Shown here: in pieces, positions 4,471 to 31,561 of the stretch
Position numbering within the stretch: position 1 is the stretch's first letter
How the letters are laid out: each line of letters begins with the position of its first letter
Assembly: GCA_007693595.1 (NCBI GenBank)
Contig: REDI01000007.1
Span: 1 to 32,209, forward strand
Reading direction: 5' to 3'
Length of the DNA: 32,209 bases
Source of the DNA: Deltaproteobacteria bacterium
GTDB lineage: Bacteria; Myxococcota_A; UBA796; GCA-2862545
The notes under the pieces: generated by a model
What the model was told of the DNA's origin: nothing
Seen by the model: only the letters and a program-made list of their open reading frames with translations
Database searches by the model: none
Translations under genes and position numbers: made by a program

Positions 4471-5549
4471 TTCACCTCCTCACGCTGAGCCTGCTCCTCG
4501 CTGGCCCCGCCTGGGCGGGCGATGGCGCAGCCGACGAGGTCTGCGACACAGATCTCGAGCAGGACCTGAACTGCAACTACATCAACTGGGATCTCGAGCT
4601 CGACGTCGACCTCGACGACCCGGAGTGCATCTGGCCTGGCCGCGAAGACGGCGAGAACGCCAACGCCGACTGGTTCTACGACTATACCTCCTTCAAGTGC
4701 AGGTACAACCTGCAAGCCATGGGCTTCGACGAAGACGAAGACGGCTTCTCCTACGGCAGCATCGAGGTCGGGCCCGAGGGCCAGCCCCCCGATCGCGTGA
4801 TCACCCTGCAGTGCGACAACTGCCCCGAAGACTACAACCCCGATCAGATGGATCGGGACTGTGACAACGTCGGCGACATCTGCGACAACTGCCCCGACGA
4901 CTACAACCCCGATCAGGCCGAGTCCGACGGCGATGGCCTGGGCGATGTGTGCGACAACTGCCCCTTCGTCTACAACCCCGACCAGACCGACAGCGACGGC
5001 GACGGCGTCGGCGACGCCTGCGACAACTGTGTCGACATTCCCAACCCCGATCAGTCCGACATCGACGGCGACGGCTGGGGCGACCTCTGCGACAACTGCC
5101 CAACCCGCTTCAACCAGTTCCAGCTCGACACCGATGAGGACGGGCATGGCGACATCTGCGACAACTGCCCCGACGACTACAACCCCGAGCAAGAAGACCG
5201 CGACACGGACCAAGTAGGCGATATTTGCGACAACTGCCCCGACGTCTACAACCCTGACCAGACCGACACCAGCGGCGACGGCGTCGGCGACGCCTGCGAC
5301 AACTGTCCCGACGAATACAACCCCGACCAGCTCGACAGCGACGGCGACGGCGTCGGCGACGCCTGCGACAACTGCCCCTTCGTCTTCAACCCCAACCAAG
5401 AAGACTCCAACGGGAACGGGATCGGGGACGTCTGCGATGGCGCTCCCAAGCTCCGAGGCGGAGGGTGCCGGTGTAGCGCCGTCCCCGCATCCAGCCTGGG
5501 ATGGGGGCTCCTGATCGGCTTGGGCCTGCTCGCCCGCCGCCGACGCTGA
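4467..5549 (+). CDS. Thrombospondin type 3 repeat protein with MYXO-CTERM-like tail
   Basis: This 360-residue exported protein overlaps the OmpA-like gene by 4 bases. Its signal peptide ends GPAWA (about residue 17). Residues 116-322 are nine contiguous 23-residue repeats of the form CDNCPxxYNPDQxDxDGDGxGDx, the thrombospondin type 3 pattern, in which the Asp-rich loops bind calcium and the two cysteines per unit pair. Some units are degenerate: unit 5 has NQFQ for NPDQ, and units 1 and 6 lack part of the DGDG loop. The last 30 residues carry GGGCRC, a hydrophobic helix and ARRRR. That is the layout of MYXO-CTERM, a C-terminal sorting signal cleaved by a myxosortase so the protein can reach the cell surface. 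An Asp-rich segment (about 20-60) precedes the repeats. Likely role: calcium-stabilised surface or matrix protein. The partner is probably the coupled OmpA-like protein. Confidence 0.93.
4812..5432 (+). repeat. Nine tandem 69-bp units coding TSP3 repeats
   Basis: Nine in-frame 69-bp units each begin with the codons for Cys-Asp-Asn-Cys. Units 3, 7 and 8 are especially alike at DNA level, which suggests unit turnover by duplication. The array is a natural site for copy-number change. Confidence 0.9.
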
Positions 5550-23206: not shown

Positions 23207-23460
23207 GGGGGCTCCGGGGCAGGACAGGGACGAAGAGAACGGCGGGCGCATTCGATGCGCTGGGGGAGGGCGAGCGTCGACTTCGGTTCGTCGATAGCAG
23301 AGCCGAAGGGGGCAGTCGGGAGGCGCAGGGCGACGCTCTCGGCGGGGCGGGCTGGATGCCGGCGCTCTCGGCGGGCAGGCGCCTTCGACGGGGCGGCCGC
23401 CAGGGACGGGGCGGGCGCCAGGGACGGGGCGGGCGCCATGGAGGCGAGCTCCGCCGCGGC
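23207..23460. other. Non-coding GC-rich stretch preceding the left repeat module
   Basis: No convincing gene is present. It holds a CTTCGG/CCGAAG inverted repeat (23281-23286, 23303-23308) and two near-copies of GCTCTCGGCGGG about 30 bp apart. It also holds a perfect 18-bp tandem duplication (23400-23435). CGGTTCGTCGA at 23284-23294 recurs at 23814-23824, just upstream of the transposase gene. Confidence 0.6.
23400..23435. repeat. Two tandem 18-bp units, CCAGGGACGGGGCGGGCG
   Basis: Two identical adjacent copies (23400-23417 and 23418-23435). A degenerate relative precedes them. This is GC-rich slippage-type repeat, immediately left of the 31-bp array. Confidence 0.85.
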
Positions 23461-23688
23461 CACCGTAGTCGACGCAACTTCGGACCTCGACCACCGTAGT
23501 CGACGCAACTTCGGACCTCGACCCCCGTAGTCGACGCAACTTCGGACCTCGACCCCCACTGACGCGACCGACCTCCCGATAACGTAGCCTCTATCGTCGG
23601 CACCTCGACCGAAGGGGCCCTCCAGCCGCCTGACCTCCGAAGTTAAGCTGACTTCGGTCCTTCACCTCCGAAGTTAAGCCGACTTCGG
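23461..23688 (+). repeat. Left repeat module of the RAYT island (three 31-bp units + two hairpins)
   Basis: Three contiguous 31-bp units cover 23461-23491, 23492-23522 and 23523-23553; the first two are identical and the third differs by one base. Each contains GTCGACGCAACTTCGG. After a spacer come two hairpins, CCGAAGT-7 bases-ACTTCGG, at 23637-23657 and 23668-23688, whose starts are also 31 bp apart. The module recurs in the same orientation beyond the transposase gene. Confidence 0.9.
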
Positions 23689-23822
23689 TTCGGCGGCGTG
23701 GTGCCGATCTCATGGTCGGTACGGACACGAGGCTCGCGCCGGCCCGCGGCGATGGCGCTCGGCTCATGCCGGCGACATGCGCGGACCGAAGTGGACCGGC
23801 CGCCGACGGGTGTCGGTTCGTC

Positions 23823-23836
23823 GACGGACGTCCGTC
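23823..23836. promoter_or_regulatory. Perfect 14-bp palindrome GACGGACGTCCGTC upstream of the transposase gene
   Basis: Fully self-complementary and 44 bases before the chosen transposase start. It is a candidate operator, or a recognition site for the transposase itself. Confidence 0.4.
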
Positions 23837-23880
23837 ACTCCACAGCGCAACAGACGGTGGAAAACGCAAGATCTACTGGC

Positions 23881-24723
23881 ATGGCTCATGCATTCGAGAT
23901 GGCCATGAGACACTTTGCCGCCCATGCTGTCGACGACCGCCTCCTCTTTCTTACCTGGGAGGAGGGGCTCCACCTCTGGAGCGTGCTGACATCCAGACTG
24001 CCCGGCGCGGTAGTCTGTCTGATGCCGAACCATGTTCACGTGCTCGCACCCGAGGAAGGGCGAGGTGCGATCCGGGGAGCCATGTCCTCTCATGCGCGCT
24101 GGCTGAACCACCGGCGAAAGCTCTGCGGTCCACTGTGGCGCCCTCTGTCCGACACCGGCGCGATCCTCGGGCGCGAGAAGTGGGAGAGGAACATTCGGTA
24201 CGTGCACCTCAACCCCTGCCGGGCCGGACTGGTCGACGACCCGCTGGCGTGGCCCCTCTCGACCCATCGAGACCTGGTCGGGCTGACGCTGAGACCCGTC
24301 ACTCCCGTGCGCCGCGATCCGGCTGGGTTCCATCGCTACGTCAGCTCCGACCCGAAGGTGCGCGTAGAGGGCACGATGCTGCCCTACAACATTCTGGAGA
24401 AGCCAACCTTCGATGAGCTGGTCGATGCGGTGAGCGCGCTGGTTCGGTGTACCGACGACGAGCTTCGGCGTAAGACGTCAGCCAGGAGGACGCTGATCCG
24501 CGCCGCCAAGAGCCTCACGCCCCTGAACAACAGGGAGATCGCCGAGGCGGTAGGGGTGAGTCGGAGGACCGTGGAGAACGCAGCGCAGCTTGATCCAGGG
24601 GGCGAGAAGATCCTCCGTCGGGTGTTCGGCGACCGACGATTCGGGCTGATCGTGGCGGAGGACGGCCCTCGAAAGGGATGGAAGTATAGGGTGAATACTG
24701 CGGATCGAGGGCAGCGACTCTAG
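23881..24723 (+). CDS. REP-associated tyrosine transposase (RAYT, IS200/IS605-like HUH nuclease)
   Basis: The protein has 280 residues from ATG 23881. No good ribosome site is visible, and in-frame starts further upstream (for example ATG 23752) are possible. The HUH pair is His51 and His53 in CLMPNHVHVL, the hallmark of Y1 transposases. NIRYVHLNPCRAGLV (104-118) is the RAYT signature, with Tyr107 the likely nucleophile region. The C-terminal about 100 residues add a helix-turn-helix-like segment, LNNREIAEAVGVSRRTVENA, seen in a subset of RAYTs and likely to bind DNA. The family cuts and joins single-stranded DNA at REP hairpins. Non-coding modules with short hairpins lie on both sides in direct orientation. 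The N-terminus is shorter than in many RAYTs, where a PRxxR-x-YHV segment precedes; truncation or a wrong start is possible. Confidence 0.9.
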   Translation: MAHAFEMAMRHFAAHAVDDRLLFLTWEEGLHLWSVLTSRLPGAVVCLMPNHVHVLAPEEGRGAIRGAMSSHARWLNHRRKLCGPLWRPLSDTGAILGREKWERNIRYVHLNPCRAGLVDDPLAWPLSTHRDLVGLTLRPVTPVRRDPAGFHRYVSSDPKVRVEGTMLPYNILEKPTFDELVDAVSALVRCTDDELRRKTSARRTLIRAAKSLTPLNNREIAEAVGVSRRTVENAAQLDPGGEKILRRVFGDRRFGLIVAEDGPRKGWKYRVNTADRGQRL

Positions 24724-24799
24724 CGGGCGCCCCCGACGGGACAGGCGCAGCCGACCGGGCAAGCCTTGACAGGCCGGGGGGCACGAGATGTGCCGCAGG

Positions 24800-24813
24800 C
24801 ATCGGTTCCGATG
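24800..24813. other. CATCGG-TT-CCGATG inverted repeat after the transposase gene
   Basis: A 6-bp inverted repeat with a 2-bp centre, 77 bases after the transposase stop and just before the right 31-bp units. It could mark an element end or a termination structure. Confidence 0.35.
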
Positions 24814-24831
24814 GGCGAAGACCGCCGCGCC

Positions 24832-25021
24832 CCCCGTAGTCGACGCAACGTCGGACCTCGACCCCCGTAGTCGACGCAACGTCGGACCTCGACCCCGTCC
24901 AGCCTCAACCGCCATCCGAAAACGAAGCCTCTATCGTTCGCGCCCTCACCGAAGGCCCCGTCCAGCGCCTCCAACTCCGAAGTTAAGCCCACTTCGGCCC
25001 TTCACCTCCGAAGTTACGCGG
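24832..25021 (+). repeat. Right repeat module of the RAYT island (two 31-bp units + one and a half hairpins)
   Basis: Two identical 31-bp units (24832-24862, 24863-24893) differ from the left ones at one position (CAACGTCGG versus CAACTTCGG). The first hairpin, CCGAAGT-7 bases-ACTTCGG, is at 24977-24997. A second, degenerate one starts 31 bp later (25008) and lacks its right arm. The distance from the last 31-bp unit to the first hairpin is 114 bp, exactly as in the left module. The intervening GAAGCCTCTATCGT-type spacer is also alike. Confidence 0.9.
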
Positions 25022-25234
25022 ACTACCCTCCCTCCGCGGAGCGCCTTCGACGCGGCCACAGAGGGCCTGGAGGCCCCGGAGGGCGAGGAGAAAGCCCCAA
25101 CCCTCTCACGAGCCTTAAGCCCACGACCGGGCCCCAGCGATCTCCACCCTTGAAGACCCCGAGGGGCCGCATCGTCTCTGGCGACCACGGGCGCGGGCCA
25201 AGGTCCCCCCGGCCTCCACGCCCCGTCTCCCTCG
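25022..25234. other. Non-coding stretch right of the RAYT island
   Basis: No gene is supported. It contains GCGCCTTCGACG (25041-25052), also found left of the left module (23379-23390), and a GGCCTGGAGGCC inverted repeat. Otherwise it is unremarkable GC-rich sequence. Confidence 0.5.
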
Positions 25235-25723: not shown

Positions 25724-27802
25724 TCACGCGGTCGCTCGGGCGGCGTCGTGCCGCCAGGTGACGGCCAGTCCCTCCAGCCGGTCGTGGTGGACGGGCACCC
25801 CATGGGCGGCGGCGCGCAGCACGATGGCGCGAATGTCGGCGCCGGAGAGCGGATAGAGCGCGGCCAACCTGCGGAGGTCGACGCCGGGGGCGCGGCGGTC
25901 TTGGGGCAGCATCGCCTGCCACAGCGCCTCGCGGGCCTCGCGGTCGGGCATCGGGAGGTGGATCGTCCACAGCAGCCGCCGCGTCAGGGCCGGATCGAGG
26001 GCGTCCTGGCGGTTGGTGGTCATCACCACGAGGCCCTCGTGGCTGTCGAGCAGCGTCAGCAGCGCGGAGGTGAGCACGTCGTCGTGATGGGCGCTGCGGG
26101 AGGATCCCCGAAGGCCGGCGATGGCGTCCACCTCGTCGAGCACGAGGACCGCGTCTTCGCGATCGGCCTGGGCAAAGAGCTCGGAGAGGCGGCGCTCGCT
26201 CTCCCCGACCCACTTGGACCGCACCGAGGCTGCCGAGACCAGCAGCGCCCCGCGACCCAGCTCGCCAGCGATCGCGCGAGCGCCGTGGGTCTTTCCGGTT
26301 CCGGGAGGCCCGTGCAGCAGGAGCGCCGTCGCCGAGGTGGCCTTGCCCCCGATCCCCCACGTGTCCGCCCAACGCGCGAGGTGGAGCACCTCCTCGATCT
26401 CCAGCCTCGCATCCGTCGGGACAAAGAGATCGTCGAGGGTGATGGAGGACCGCAGCGTCCCCTCCGGCGCGATCCCGGTTCGGGCGTCACGGGCGGCAGA
26501 GGCCAGATCGGCAACCCGGATCGGGCCGTGCAGTCCTCGGCTCGCGAAGGCGCGGGCGCTGGCGGTCAGGACCGCGTTCTTGATCTCCCCGCCGGTCAGC
26601 GGAAAGCGTGAGGCCAGCCGTTCAAGATCGACGTCTTCGGCCAGCGGCAGCTCCGGCGGCAGGTGGGCGCGCCAGATCTCCTCGCGCTGATCCGCCTCGG
26701 GAGCGCTGAACCGGAGGTGGAGCAAGATGCGCCGGTGAAGCGCCTCATCGAGGTGTTCGGGGAGGTTGGTCGCGAGCACCGCGACCCCGTCGAAGCGCTC
26801 CAGCTCGGCGAGCAGGATCGGCATGAGGTCGTTGCCTCGGGAGCGGCTCATGAAGACCGACTCACACTCGTCGAAGAACAGCAGGGCGTCGCGCAGGCGT
26901 GCCTCGCGGAACAGCCCCGGGAGCAGGCGCTGGTGATCGACGTGGCGCGCCAGCGTCGGCAGATCGACCGAGAGCACCCGCAGACCCAGCCGATCGGCGA
27001 TGGCGTGGGCGGTCATCGTCTTGCCCGTCCCCGGAGGCCCGCTGAACAGCAGGTACGTGCCCCGACCATAGGGGATCACGCGGTCGAGGCCCCACGTCGC
27101 CCGAGCGGCGAGCCAGCCCTGGCGGTCGTCGATGAGAGGCAGCAGTCGAGCGCGGTCCTCCTCGCGGAGCACGAGCCGCTCGAAGCTCGCCAGCGGCGCC
27201 CCGATGCTCGACAGCTCGACGACCTCGTCGCTGAGCCGGTCATCACCGAGCACTGAGGACAGCCCGTAGGTGGTGATGTTGATCGAGGCCCGCAGCAGGT
27301 CGTCGGCGGAGGCGGCGCGGCGCCCCATGTCGAGTTGGATCAGGTCGAGGCGGCGGAGGGGGGCGTCGGCGCGGAAGCGGGCGCGCTCGGCGACCTGATC
27401 CGCGAGGTCGAGCTCCGCGAGCTGAAGCACAGAGAGCACGGTGAGCATGCACGAAGGAAAGTGCTCGAACAGATCTTCGAGGGTCGGATCGAGGGCGACG
27501 GCAGCGCTGTTCAGCAAGACCTCCCGGTCGAAGGCGGTGAGGCCCTCCTGCGCGGCCAGGGCGTCGATGGGCAGGGTCAGTCCCAGCTCGCGGGTTCGGC
27601 GCAAGCGAGCTTCGATGTGAGCGCGGGTCGACCGCGCCTTGTCCTTGGACTGGGCTTCCGGGTTCGCCTCCACCTCGTCAAAGCAGCTCGCGCAGCGGCG
27701 ACCGTTCTTGCGAGGCGCGATCCACGTCGCTTGATGACGCAGCCAGCGCTGGTGATCTTCGAGGTGCTCGAGGGCGGAACGATAGGGCTCAAGGTTCGGC
27801 AT
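25724..27802 (-). CDS. Tandem-domain AAA+ ATPase
   Basis: The 692-residue protein starts at ATG 27802-27800, with GGAG upstream. Two AAA+ modules follow an N-terminal helical domain of about 200 residues. Domain 1: Walker A GPPGTGKT (255-262), Walker B LLFFDECE (307-314), sensor ATNLPEHLDEALHRR (344-358). Domain 2: Walker A GPPGTGKT (498-505), Walker B VLVLDEVD (552-559), sensor TTNRQDALDPALTRR (595-609). Both keep the catalytic acidic pairs and arginine fingers, so both rings may hydrolyse ATP. The N-domain has one CxxC (37-40), which might bind metal. The arrangement resembles Cdc48/VAT-like unfoldases and the ATPases linked to contractile injection systems, but no such genes are present here. 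Likely role: remodelling or unfolding a protein, perhaps with the small downstream gene product. It is divergent from recC. Confidence 0.9.
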   Translation of the reverse strand: MPNLEPYRSALEHLEDHQRWLRHQATWIAPRKNGRRCASCFDEVEANPEAQSKDKARSTRAHIEARLRRTRELGLTLPIDALAAQEGLTAFDREVLLNSAAVALDPTLEDLFEHFPSCMLTVLSVLQLAELDLADQVAERARFRADAPLRRLDLIQLDMGRRAASADDLLRASINITTYGLSSVLGDDRLSDEVVELSSIGAPLASFERLVLREEDRARLLPLIDDRQGWLAARATWGLDRVIPYGRGTYLLFSGPPGTGKTMTAHAIADRLGLRVLSVDLPTLARHVDHQRLLPGLFREARLRDALLFFDECESVFMSRSRGNDLMPILLAELERFDGVAVLATNLPEHLDEALHRRILLHLRFSAPEADQREEIWRAHLPPELPLAEDVDLERLASRFPLTGGEIKNAVLTASARAFASRGLHGPIRVADLASAARDARTGIAPEGTLRSSITLDDLFVPTDARLEIEEVLHLARWADTWGIGGKATSATALLLHGPPGTGKTHGARAIAGELGRGALLVSAASVRSKWVGESERRLSELFAQADREDAVLVLDEVDAIAGLRGSSRSAHHDDVLTSALLTLLDSHEGLVVMTTNRQDALDPALTRRLLWTIHLPMPDREAREALWQAMLPQDRRAPGVDLRRLAALYPLSGADIRAIVLRAAAHGVPVHHDRLEGLAVTWRHDAARATA

Positions 27803-27890
27803 CAGGATCTCCGTGAGGGTTTGGGCCCGGTTCGGGGCCTCGTGTGCTGCCCCGCAACTGGGGGCGTGCCTCCTCAACGCCCGGCCCCGC

Positions 27891-27966
27891 GGGTCGGAAC
27901 TTGTGGGTGGCGAGCGCGTTGAGCCTGCCCCGCCCGGGCCCCTCCCCTTCCTCGAAGTTCCGACCC
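27891..27966. promoter_or_regulatory. 12-bp inverted repeat in the AAA+/recC divergent gap
   Basis: GGGTCGGAACTT (27891-27902) and AAGTTCCGACCC (27955-27966) are perfect reverse complements separated by 52 bp, in the 261-bp divergent intergenic region. They are candidate paired operator sites for a looping regulator controlling both genes. No convincing sigma-70 promoter or LexA-type site was seen. Confidence 0.5.
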
Positions 27967-28063
27967 GGCGAGGACGGCGTGTCGGGGACCATGGAGGCGG
28001 GCTCTTGATGAACCCTCGAGGTTCTAGTACCGCCTCCGAGCCCGAACCCTGCAAGGAGCCCCC

Positions 28064-31000
28064 GTGCTCGAACTCACCTGTGCCCGCCCTGCCGACCTCG
28101 ACCGCGCCCTGGCCAAGGTCTCCGACTTTCTTGGGCGGCACCGCCCGCAGAGCCGCCCGCTGATCAGCCTGCCGGTGCTCATCGACCGCGCGACCCACGG
28201 CGCCTGGGTGCGCAGCTGGCTCGCCCAACATGACCCGTCGGGCACCTCGGCGGGCGTGGCGGTGGTGCCGGCCTGGGATGCGCTCGATGGCCTGATCGCC
28301 GTCGCCTACGCGTCCGAGGCCCCAGCGGGCGCGCGGATCCAGTGGTGGGAGGGCCTGCGCCGCGACGACCCGTGGAGCGCTGCGGCGCTAACCCACCGGA
28401 TCCTGGGGGTCTGGCGAGACCACCCGGGCGCGCCTGAGCTCAAAGCCGTTCACGCCTACACCGATGCCAGCGCCTCCCCCCGGGCCGATGTACGCCGTAC
28501 CCTGCTCGCGGAGCGCGCCGGTCGCCTGTTGCGCGAGGCGATGTCCCACGACGCCGCCGCGGTGCTCCCGTGGGCCTCGGAGCCTTCCGAGGGGTCTGAC
28601 GCCTGGTTCAGGTTCACCCTGCGCAAGCTCGGCGTCCAGGACAGCCCGGCTGGTTGGAGGACCGCGCCCGACCCCGAGCGCCTTCGCCCGCTCCTCGACC
28701 GCCCCGTCGTGATCGTCGGGCTGGCCGACGCCGATCCCGCGACGATCGGACTGATCGAGGCCATCGCCGAGATCCAGGACGTGTGCTGGATACGGCCGAG
28801 CACCGCCTTGGGCGTCGCTGACACGCCCCCCTCTTCGGTCACGCGGGCCCAAGGGGTCGAGATCGCGCGCCTCAAGACCTTACCTGCGTTCACGCCCGGC
28901 GATCCCGGTTCATCGTCCCCCTGCCCGACCCTCGCGAACTGGCGAGCGTGGATGACCAGCGGCACCCCGCCTGAGGCCCCCGCCGAAGAAGGCCGCGTCT
29001 TGTTTCCCGCCTGGACGCCCCGCCGCGAGGTCGAGCAGGTGCGCGACGAGCTGCTACGGCGGTTCAACAATGAAGACTTCGAGCCTCGCCAGGTGCGGAT
29101 CCTGACCCCGGACCTCGCCACCTATGGCCCGCTGATCCTCGATGTCTTCTCGGAATCGGGCGATGGTCGCAAGCCGCTGGCAACCTTCGCTGACGCGGGG
29201 TCCCCTCCCAAGGCCAAGGGGCAGGTGCCCAAGATCCCCCTCCAGCTCATCGGCCTGGGGCTGACCTCGACCAACCCCGTCGCCGCGGCCCTGCTCAAGG
29301 CCCTCGACCTGCTCACCGACCGCCTGACCGTGTCGGGCTGGTTTGAGCTGCTGTGTATTCCGCAGGTTAAGCGACGGTTCGGGCTCACGCACCTCGACAA
29401 CGACAGCCTGCGCAAGCTCCTCGCGAGCTCCGGAGCCCGCTGGGGCTTCAACGGTGCCGAGCGCGGCGAGGTCTACGGCATCGAGGCTCCGGTGCACAGC
29501 GTCGACTTCGGCCTGCAGCGCATGGCCCTGAGCGCCTTCGTGCATCAAGAGCTCGACCCGGCCAAGGGCGAGGTCCCGACCCGCTGGGGCCACGCCAACG
29601 CGCTCCTCTTTCCCACCGATGTCGGCGGGAGCGAGGGCATGCAGGCGAGCGCACGCCTCCAGATCGCCTTCGAGACCCTCCGGATCTGGCACAAGCGCCT
29701 CTGGAACGGTCCCGCCGCCGAGGGCTCCGGGACCTGGCCCGCCTTGCTAGGAGAGCTGCTCGACGATCTCCTCCAGACCGGAAGTAGCACCCAGTTTCTC
29801 CGCCAGGATGTCAACGAGGTCCTGCTCGAGGTGCTCGGCGAGGACACGAGCCCGTCCGCCACGACCGTCGCCTCCCTGCTGCGCGAGCGCTTCGACCGGG
29901 GCCTCAAGGGCGACGCCAAGGGACTGCCCGGCGTGCAGGTCATGAGCCTCGACGAGGCCAACGCCCTGCCGGCCGAGCTGGTGATCCTGATGGGCCTGAA
30001 CTCCGGCACCTTCCCCCGTCGCGACGACCGCCCGTCGTGGATGCCCGAGGGCGACCGCCCGTCCCGCACCGACCGCGACCAGCAAGCCTTCACCGCCGCC
30101 GTGCTCGCCGCCAAGCGAGAGGTCTGGCTCACCTGGACCGCCCGCGAGCCGCGCCGGGGCGAGGAGGTCCCGCCGAGCAGCCTGGTCGAGGATCTGATCG
30201 ACGCGCTGCGGCTTGACAAAGACGAGCGTCGCAACGCCGTCCAGCCTCATGGCCGGCATCGGTGGTCGGTGAGCGCAGGCGAGCCCTGGGGCACCTCGAT
30301 GGTCGCTGCGGCCGAAGCCGTCTCACGGGGAGCCAAGACCGAGGAAGAACTCTCCTGGGGCGACCAAGTTGTGCCGACCGCGGACGATGCCTCGGGGCCC
30401 CCACCACGAACCATAAGTCTGTTGGAGCTCCGAAATGCCCTGCTCAACCCCAGCAAGACCCTGCTGACAAAGGGGCTCGGGGTGTGGCTCGACAACGACG
30501 AGCGCGACCTGAGCGACGCTGACCCCCGAAAGCTCGCTTCTGCGCTTGAGAGCTGGATGCTCAAGGACACGCTCATCCGTCTGCTGCTCGAGGACCCGGA
30601 TGCGGACGATGCGACGGCGTTCGAAGTCACGGTTGGCGATGGGCTGCTGCCCGCGAATGCGTTGGGGAGAGCGCAGTTCGATGCCTACGCCGAGGAGTGT
30701 CGGGAGCTGGTGGTCCAGTATCGGGAGTGGATGGGGAGCACCCCTGAGCCCTCCTGCGTGGCAGCCACGACCTTCGACATCGACGGGCAGGAGATCACCC
30801 TAACAGGCGAGCTACCCGAAGCCTTCATCCGGCAGACCTCCGAGGGGCAGGCCATGCACATCTTCGGCCGGGCCTCTGCCTCGAAAGCAGACAAGAGCAA
30901 GCATCTGCTGAAGGGTTGGCTCGAGCTCCTGCTGGCCAATGCGGTAGGGCGTCCGGCGCCGGCGGCGTTTATCGCTTATGTAGACAAGCGTAAACCCACT

Positions 31001-31561
31001 TTGATCGGCCTCTGTATCCGACCGGCGGAGAACGGTCTGTGGCACGCTGAACAAGAGGCCATCTCACCTGCGGTCCCCAATGGCACCGACGAGGAGACTT
31101 GGCTGGCAGACTCTCGTCGCGTCAGCACAGCCCGAGACACTCTGGAGCAGCTCGTGCGCCTCGCCCTTCTCTCCGAGAGAATGCCCCTGCCCCTCTTCGA
31201 GGAGAGTAGCCACGCCCTGGCCAAAGAACTCGTAACGAAAGGCCGCGACCCCAAAGCGGCCAGCCTCTCCCCGGCTGACCTTCTCAGCTCCGCGATCGGT
31301 AAAGCCGGTGACCAGTGGTTTCCCACTTACTACTCGAAGGGAGACTGCGAAGACCCCTACGTCTCACGTCTTCACCCCAGCTACGACCTCGTCCGGGATC
31401 TCGAGCGGTTAATGGTCGAGAACGTCTCTCTTCGACCCTCAACCGGACCCGACCTCTCCTGTGCCCTGTCTCTCGCCCTCCACGTCTGGTGGCCTGTGGC
31501 GTGCGCGAGGGTCACTTCAGACAAATTCAAGAATCACTTTCTCGCGGGGGGCAACCCATGA
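28064..31561 (+). CDS. recC: Exodeoxyribonuclease V gamma subunit RecC
   Basis: This 1165-residue protein starts at GTG 28064, 6 bases after AAGGAG (28052-28057). Length and layout fit RecC, the Chi-scanning, inactive helicase-like subunit of RecBCD. GRVLFPAWTPRREVEQVRDELL (about 310-330) matches the RecC segment HSPxREVEVLHDxLL. VQVMSLDEANALPAELVILMGLNSGTFPRRDDRPSW (about 624-660), then RTDRDQQAFTAAVLAAKREVWLTW, matches the conserved core (GLNDGxFPR, DR-x-x-FLxALLAAR). The C-terminus has a degenerate nuclease-fold look, as in RecC. The stop overlaps the recB ATG (ATGA), so the two are translationally coupled. The last about 1.1 kb is slightly less GC-rich than the rest. It binds the 3' strand at double-strand breaks with RecB and RecD. 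Confidence 0.9.
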   Translation: MLELTCARPADLDRALAKVSDFLGRHRPQSRPLISLPVLIDRATHGAWVRSWLAQHDPSGTSAGVAVVPAWDALDGLIAVAYASEAPAGARIQWWEGLRRDDPWSAAALTHRILGVWRDHPGAPELKAVHAYTDASASPRADVRRTLLAERAGRLLREAMSHDAAAVLPWASEPSEGSDAWFRFTLRKLGVQDSPAGWRTAPDPERLRPLLDRPVVIVGLADADPATIGLIEAIAEIQDVCWIRPSTALGVADTPPSSVTRAQGVEIARLKTLPAFTPGDPGSSSPCPTLANWRAWMTSGTPPEAPAEEGRVLFPAWTPRREVEQVRDELLRRFNNEDFEPRQVRILTPDLATYGPLILDVFSESGDGRKPLATFADAGSPPKAKGQVPKIPLQLIGLGLTSTNPVAAALLKALDLLTDRLTVSGWFELLCIPQVKRRFGLTHLDNDSLRKLLASSGARWGFNGAERGEVYGIEAPVHSVDFGLQRMALSAFVHQELDPAKGEVPTRWGHANALLFPTDVGGSEGMQASARLQIAFETLRIWHKRLWNGPAAEGSGTWPALLGELLDDLLQTGSSTQFLRQDVNEVLLEVLGEDTSPSATTVASLLRERFDRGLKGDAKGLPGVQVMSLDEANALPAELVILMGLNSGTFPRRDDRPSWMPEGDRPSRTDRDQQAFTAAVLAAKREVWLTWTAREPRRGEEVPPSSLVEDLIDALRLDKDERRNAVQPHGRHRWSVSAGEPWGTSMVAAAEAVSRGAKTEEELSWGDQVVPTADDASGPPPRTISLLELRNALLNPSKTLLTKGLGVWLDNDERDLSDADPRKLASALESWMLKDTLIRLLLEDPDADDATAFEVTVGDGLLPANALGRAQFDAYAEECRELVVQYREWMGSTPEPSCVAATTFDIDGQEITLTGELPEAFIRQTSEGQAMHIFGRASASKADKSKHLLKGWLELLLANAVGRPAPAAFIAYVDKRKPTLIGLCIRPAENGLWHAEQEAISPAVPNGTDEETWLADSRRVSTARDTLEQLVRLALLSERMPLPLFEESSHALAKELVTKGRDPKAASLSPADLLSSAIGKAGDQWFPTYYSKGDCEDPYVSRLHPSYDLVRDLERLMVENVSLRPSTGPDLSCALSLALHVWWPVACARVTSDKFKNHFLAGGNP

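Follow-up and report, generated by a model that had tools for sequence, protein, structure and literature searches.

The window analysed here is the whole stretch of 32,209 nucleotides at positions 1-32,209 of contig REDI01000007.1 from a Deltaproteobacteria bacterium (assembly GCA_007693595.1). It contains a RAYT gene (positions 23881-24723, + strand; 280 codons from the ATG at 23881) lying between two direct copies of a repeat module, at about 23463-23688 (module 1) and about 24834-25028 (module 2). An 18-bp GC-rich tandem repeat (23373-23442) is located immediately ahead of module 1. Other features of the window include a gene for a large protein that combines a variant winged-helix domain with two AAA ATPase domains (25724-28231, - strand) and, among NCBIfam models, comes closest to the anti-phage ATPase IteA with a score far below the cut-off; an adjoining gene for a RecC-like protein (28064-31561, + strand; RecC_C, E 1e-30); and nine copies of a 69-bp tandem repeat (4812-5437) that encode Asp-rich repeats like thrombospondin type 3 repeats.

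The tandem 31-bp units that the original prediction had placed on either side of an HUH transposase gene were recovered by a repeat search of the window, with 3.1 copies (98%) at 23463-23557 and 2.1 copies (100%) at 24831-24896. In module 1, the left arm (23463-23557, + strand) consists of three units whose 21-nt cores start at 23463, 23494 and 23525 (CCGTAGTCGACGCAACTTCGG), and the right arm (23637-23688, - strand) of two inverted units with cores at 23637-23657 and 23668-23688, 31 bp apart. A central box, AGCCTCTATCGTC (23586-23598, + strand), lies 40 bp from the left inner core and 38 bp from the right one. Module 2 has a left arm of two units (24834-24896, + strand; cores at 24834 and 24865; CCGTAGTCGACGCAACGTCGG), a central box, AGCCTCTATCGTT (24926-24938, + strand), with the same 40/38 offsets, and a right arm of two inverted units (24977-25028, - strand; cores at 24977-24997 and, decayed, at 25008-25028). 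Arm-to-arm spacing is 112 bp in both modules when the first bases of the inner 21-nt cores (CCGTAGTCnnnnnAACTTCGG) of the two arms serve as end points. The identical spacing is thus real, and the 114 bp given earlier was the same distance taken from other reference bases.

Two hairpin-like pairs in the window (23636-23689 and 24976-25028) had been regarded as a second component beside the 31-bp array. This two-part layout was abandoned: the repeat search paired the left units and the right "hairpins" as inverted repeats, and the right elements proved to be the same 31-bp unit in the opposite orientation, again 31 bp apart. As read from the sequences, each arm of a module contains 2-5 tandem 31-bp units, the two arms are inverted relative to each other, and the linker of fixed length between them holds a short conserved box. 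A recent IS-like composite made up of the RAYT gene and both modules was also considered and rejected, because each window module is closer to a module at another locus than to its partner (linker identity is 80% between module 2 and the C94 module and 73% between module 1 and the C57 module, vs 66% between modules 1 and 2).

The RAYT protein carries the HUH motif as PNHVH and a single catalytic tyrosine in RYVHLNP, in agreement with the TnpA_REP fold. An in-frame ATG at 23905 agrees better with the alignment of its clade than the ATG at 23881. In the predicted structure (mean pLDDT 70), two fold searches gave coherent matches for two parts only, and other matches were taken as chance. The HUH (TnpA_REP-like) domain comprises residues 3-159 (23887-24357, + strand) and matches 4er8 with Z 12.3 over 137 residues; the same structure was matched with the clade profile at E 1e-7. 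Residues 179-257 (24415-24651, + strand) form a predicted C-terminal helical DNA-binding domain that resembles DnaA domain IV on DnaA-box DNA (3pvp, Z 6.6; 1j1v, Z 6.2 and 20% identity), with modest Z values of 6-7 and pLDDT of 52-77; Pfam HTH matches to the C-terminal region are weak. Based on this model, the RAYT appears to combine an HUH nuclease domain with a DnaA-domain-IV-like duplex-binding domain.

To the draft genome (4.92 Mb in 97 contigs, fragmented) the search for the unit was extended, and further copies linked to RAYT genes were found. The motif CCGTAGTC-N23-CCGTAGTC gave 40 tandem pairs vs none for the reversed control, far beyond chance. About 15 modules with three unit families (f1-f3) were identified, which is a lower bound because several arrays lie at contig ends; their spacing was 112 bp in 11, 111 bp in two, and 110 and 101 bp in one each. 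Family f1, that of the window, comprises nine modules (two on C10 and one each on C57, C94, C85, C6, C70, C76 and C58), with 2-5 units per arm and a spacing of 112 bp in all of them. Family f2 (CCGTAGTCnnnnGAGTTGCGG) is represented on C67, C16 (two modules), C15 and C19, with spacings of 112, 111, 111, 110 and 101 bp, and f3 (ACGTAGTCGCCTGAGTGAGGG) by one module on C52 (112 bp) and one extra unit on C86. The genome has exactly three RAYT genes, one beside each family (C10 beside f1, C67 beside f2 and C52 beside f3). All three score 37-39 bits against NF047646, below its curated cut-off of 80 bits, and by this score they are divergent relatives rather than members of this equivalog.

Dispersal apart from the transposase gene, as had been proposed, was borne out by modules at places without a RAYT gene and by near-identical copies at different loci. 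The f1 linkers fall into three groups, with between-group likeness little above chance. Within one group (C85, C6, C70 and C76), linkers at different loci are 83-93% identical and the modules have a further 60-95 bp in common on one side, which is evidence of copying. Between most modules, homology ends near the arm ends. An 87-bp stretch, 94% identical, flanks two modules of different unit families, those on C16 (L191:9-95) and C57 (L044, right of the module).

Apart from single chance matches, the CCGTAGTC unit pair did not occur in 57 further genomes of the order. In a relative, G009, the module beside the RAYT gene on its contig C27 recurs at about 31 places with a unit sequence unlike that of the present genome and the same plan. 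This unit occurred in 60 tandem pairs in G009, in none in the control and in none in the congener G018. The C27 RAYT gene is flanked by two modules, as in the window. In the 26 modules that were read from end to end, each arm has two units, the arms are inverted, and the 31-bp period is exact in all 51 in-array unit pairs found. Spacing in G009, based on these 26 modules and four others from scan coordinates, was 111 bp (18 modules), 110 bp (six), 100 bp (three), 101 bp (two) and 121 bp (one). The linkers are mutually unrelated, with pairwise identities of 0.13-0.56. According to gene calls by a simple codon model written for this analysis, 25 of the 26 modules are intergenic in DNA that is 91% coding, and the 24 dispersed ones lie between divergent genes in two cases, codirectional genes in 13 and convergent genes in eight. 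Thus, the sites are intergenic without promoter bias.

Nearly all G009 linkers hold GGCGTTCGCTCGTT in either orientation. In the direction of the box itself, the distance to the arm is 27, 37 or 47-48 bp in all 26 modules, and on the opposite side 26, 36-37 or 47 bp; only 4% of shuffled linkers had the box at those distances, and a leave-one-out motif test upheld the placement in 25 of 26 modules. The box also shifts at constant total length (27+47, 37+37 and 48+26), and such shifts cannot stem from one insertion or deletion. In f1, the box (AGCCTCTATCGTC or CGCCTTCGCTCGTC, being less alike between the module groups) is always 39-40/38 bp from the arms, and the f2 and f3 boxes (GGCGTTGGCTCGTA, GACGTTGGTTCGTG and GGCGTTCCATTGTA) occupy the same place; in the 101-bp module on C19, 11 bp are missing from one side only. 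A box was looked for and not found in the G028 modules, and none was clear in the C67a module.

At 11 other RAYTs, whose units are unrelated, a GGCGTT/GGCGTC-type box was present between the arms. Box displacement in 11 RAYT families with unrelated units followed a periodicity of 10.5 bp (R 0.875, Monte Carlo p 1.5e-4) in a register-free test that includes three less certain modules (L176, L181 and L189). At the sequence level, the 31-bp period of the units corresponds to three helical turns, and arm-arm and arm-box distances vary from module to module by whole helical turns while the linker sequence is free. A constant 31-bp period, combined with spacing in whole turns across linkers of free sequence, would place proteins on one face of the duplex and suggests looping.

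The three RAYTs of this genome and relatives across the order form a clade of 26 members with 100/100 support, apart from other RAYTs. The proposed link between module and RAYT was upheld in this set: modules were detected beside 17 of 24 clade RAYTs, vs one of 49 other RAYTs and one of 29 random stretches. Among the clade loci without a detected module, three have RAYTs that lack catalytic residues (L171, L174 and L175, which is the same as L110), and four have seemingly intact or contig-cut RAYTs. The RAYT relatives at L171, L174 and L110 have lost HUH or Tyr residues and have kept a long open frame. Tandem 31-bp arrays were essentially absent beside ordinary RAYTs; two ordinary RAYTs in proteobacterial MAGs (L068 and L078) have tandem GGTGGCAGTCACC-type palindromes at 33-34 bp on both sides. 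Across the clade, the box GGCGTTnnnnCGT recurs while the arms differ from gene to gene, i.e., the unit sequence changes from RAYT to RAYT and the box stays similar. This pattern of arms specific to each RAYT and a constant box would be explained by a division of labour, with recognition of the arms by the DnaA-like domain and action of the HUH domain at the box.

It is probable, although far from certain, that the modules serve an HTH-type RAYT (subclass 2.1/TIRYT-like) as dispersed docking sites in duplex DNA. The whole-turn spacing suggests that the enzyme acts on assembled duplex DNA, and not on the hairpins known for its relatives. From the sequences we infer that the module is the substrate of the RAYT, as the original prediction had supposed, and that it is mobile and is bound and cleaved by this enzyme. 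In a possible mechanism, the C-terminal domain would bind the tandem units cooperatively along one face of the helix, looping would bring the two arms together, and the looped arms would place the HUH domain over the box, where one strand would be nicked. By nicking, the enzyme may occasionally produce copies of modules at new intergenic positions, as seen in this genome, and may for the rest sustain the use of old sites, which would be the situation in G009.

Ordinary REPIN biology, in which RAYTs move inverted pairs of REPs via single-strand hairpins, would make the tandem units local duplications and the spacing an inherited feature; we regard this as unlikely. RAYTs of other groups do cleave REP hairpins, and REPIN length is fixed, at 71 and 110 bp in PMC3116915. 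The modules share with REPs and REPINs their intergenic location, multiple copies and link to a RAYT. Some window units are imperfect palindromes with GTAG, some f1 units fold (the right units of both window modules, C10a/b, z about -4) and others do not, and whole modules fold because their arms pair. However, the units do not appear to be REP palindromes in most families: f2 and f3 units showed no stable self-hairpin of the REP kind, and neither G009 units (mean z 0.04) nor G009 linkers (mean z 0.10) gave a hairpin signal. The last result in particular disfavours REP or REPIN hairpins as a general explanation, for which the folding tests gave no general support. Instead of two inverted REPs with a spacer hairpin, there are 2-5 units per arm and linkers with z about 0. 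In place of a GT[AG]G hairpin foot, f1-f3 units carry GTAG internally, and G009 units lack it. Inheritance of the spacing also fails to account for whole-turn steps in unrelated linkers and for the box shifts at constant length.

Chromosome-organising proteins that form looped complexes typically do so on old intergenic sites that are maintained and have their parts in phase, and the modules might bind another host protein (a nucleoid, partition, replication or repair factor), with the RAYT merely situated among them. The intergenic placement and the lack of recent copies in G009 would suit this possibility, but it appears rather improbable, considering that the unit sequence is particular to each RAYT locus (three families with three RAYTs here), that the congener G018 lacks the G009 units and that a duplex-binding domain is predicted in the RAYT itself. 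Looped operators also show helical phasing, and the modules adjoin RAYT genes, as would be expected if the RAYT regulated its own gene and a small regulon; this has very little probability given that only two of the 24 dispersed G009 modules lie between divergent genes, and an operator or promoter role was set aside for lack of a divergent-gene bias in that genome.

Compared with known systems, the docking-site reading has several parallels. Phage attP sites and rolling-circle plasmid origins (bind and nic) contain repeated arms that bind protein, a separate core and spacing by whole helical turns; here there is no integrase or plasmid, and the modules are dispersed at 15-31 chromosomal places. 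BIMEs are also clusters of inverted repeat units, but they alternate orientation unit by unit, whereas all units of an arm are co-oriented here. The RAYT/TnpA_REP enzymes with their REPs and REPINs (the REPtron) are alike in having an HUH single-tyrosine enzyme with a dispersed intergenic repeat of its own on the flanks of its gene, inverted pairs and one repeat family per enzyme. What differs here is the tandem 31-bp units in each arm, the central box, the helical phasing and the additional predicted duplex-binding domain, with no general hairpin or GTAG foot.

The RAYT fits subclass 2.1 of TnpA_REP (Quentin 2018, PMC6006769) and TIRYT (Di Nocera 2013, PMC3733652) when published descriptions and predicted domain content are likened: both have a long protein with a C-terminal HTH or Bac_DnaA_C-like domain, here seen as a DnaA domain IV fold with weak Pfam HTH matches, and inverted repeats that flank the gene. 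TIRYTs have single long TIRs with GGGGWSAS (PMC3733652), while the present RAYTs have a defined arm-box-arm module that often lies to one side of the gene or flanks it as direct copies, and GGGGWSAS terminal inverted repeats were not found in either the units or the boxes of modules 1 and 2. For subclass 2.1, neither automatic nor manual search revealed REP-like sequences, and the survey left the target of this HTH-bearing subclass open (PMC6006769).

The modules would thus provide a cognate site for an HTH-type RAYT, in copies enough to define arms, core and geometry, and would make target binding and cutting directly testable. The duplex recognition implied by whole-turn spacing would be unusual for a family known for single-stranded hairpins, and the split between arms and box may offer a natural series in which DNA-binding specificity has changed beside a constant presumed catalytic target. 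More tentatively, and with some doubt on our part, the system may be domesticated, an HUH nuclease-DnaA-like fusion that builds looped, phased complexes on tens of dispersed duplex sites, whose arms evolve rapidly while the core is conserved, for a chromosomal role rather than selfish spread. If so, this role might be programmed nicking, replication restart or DNA organisation.
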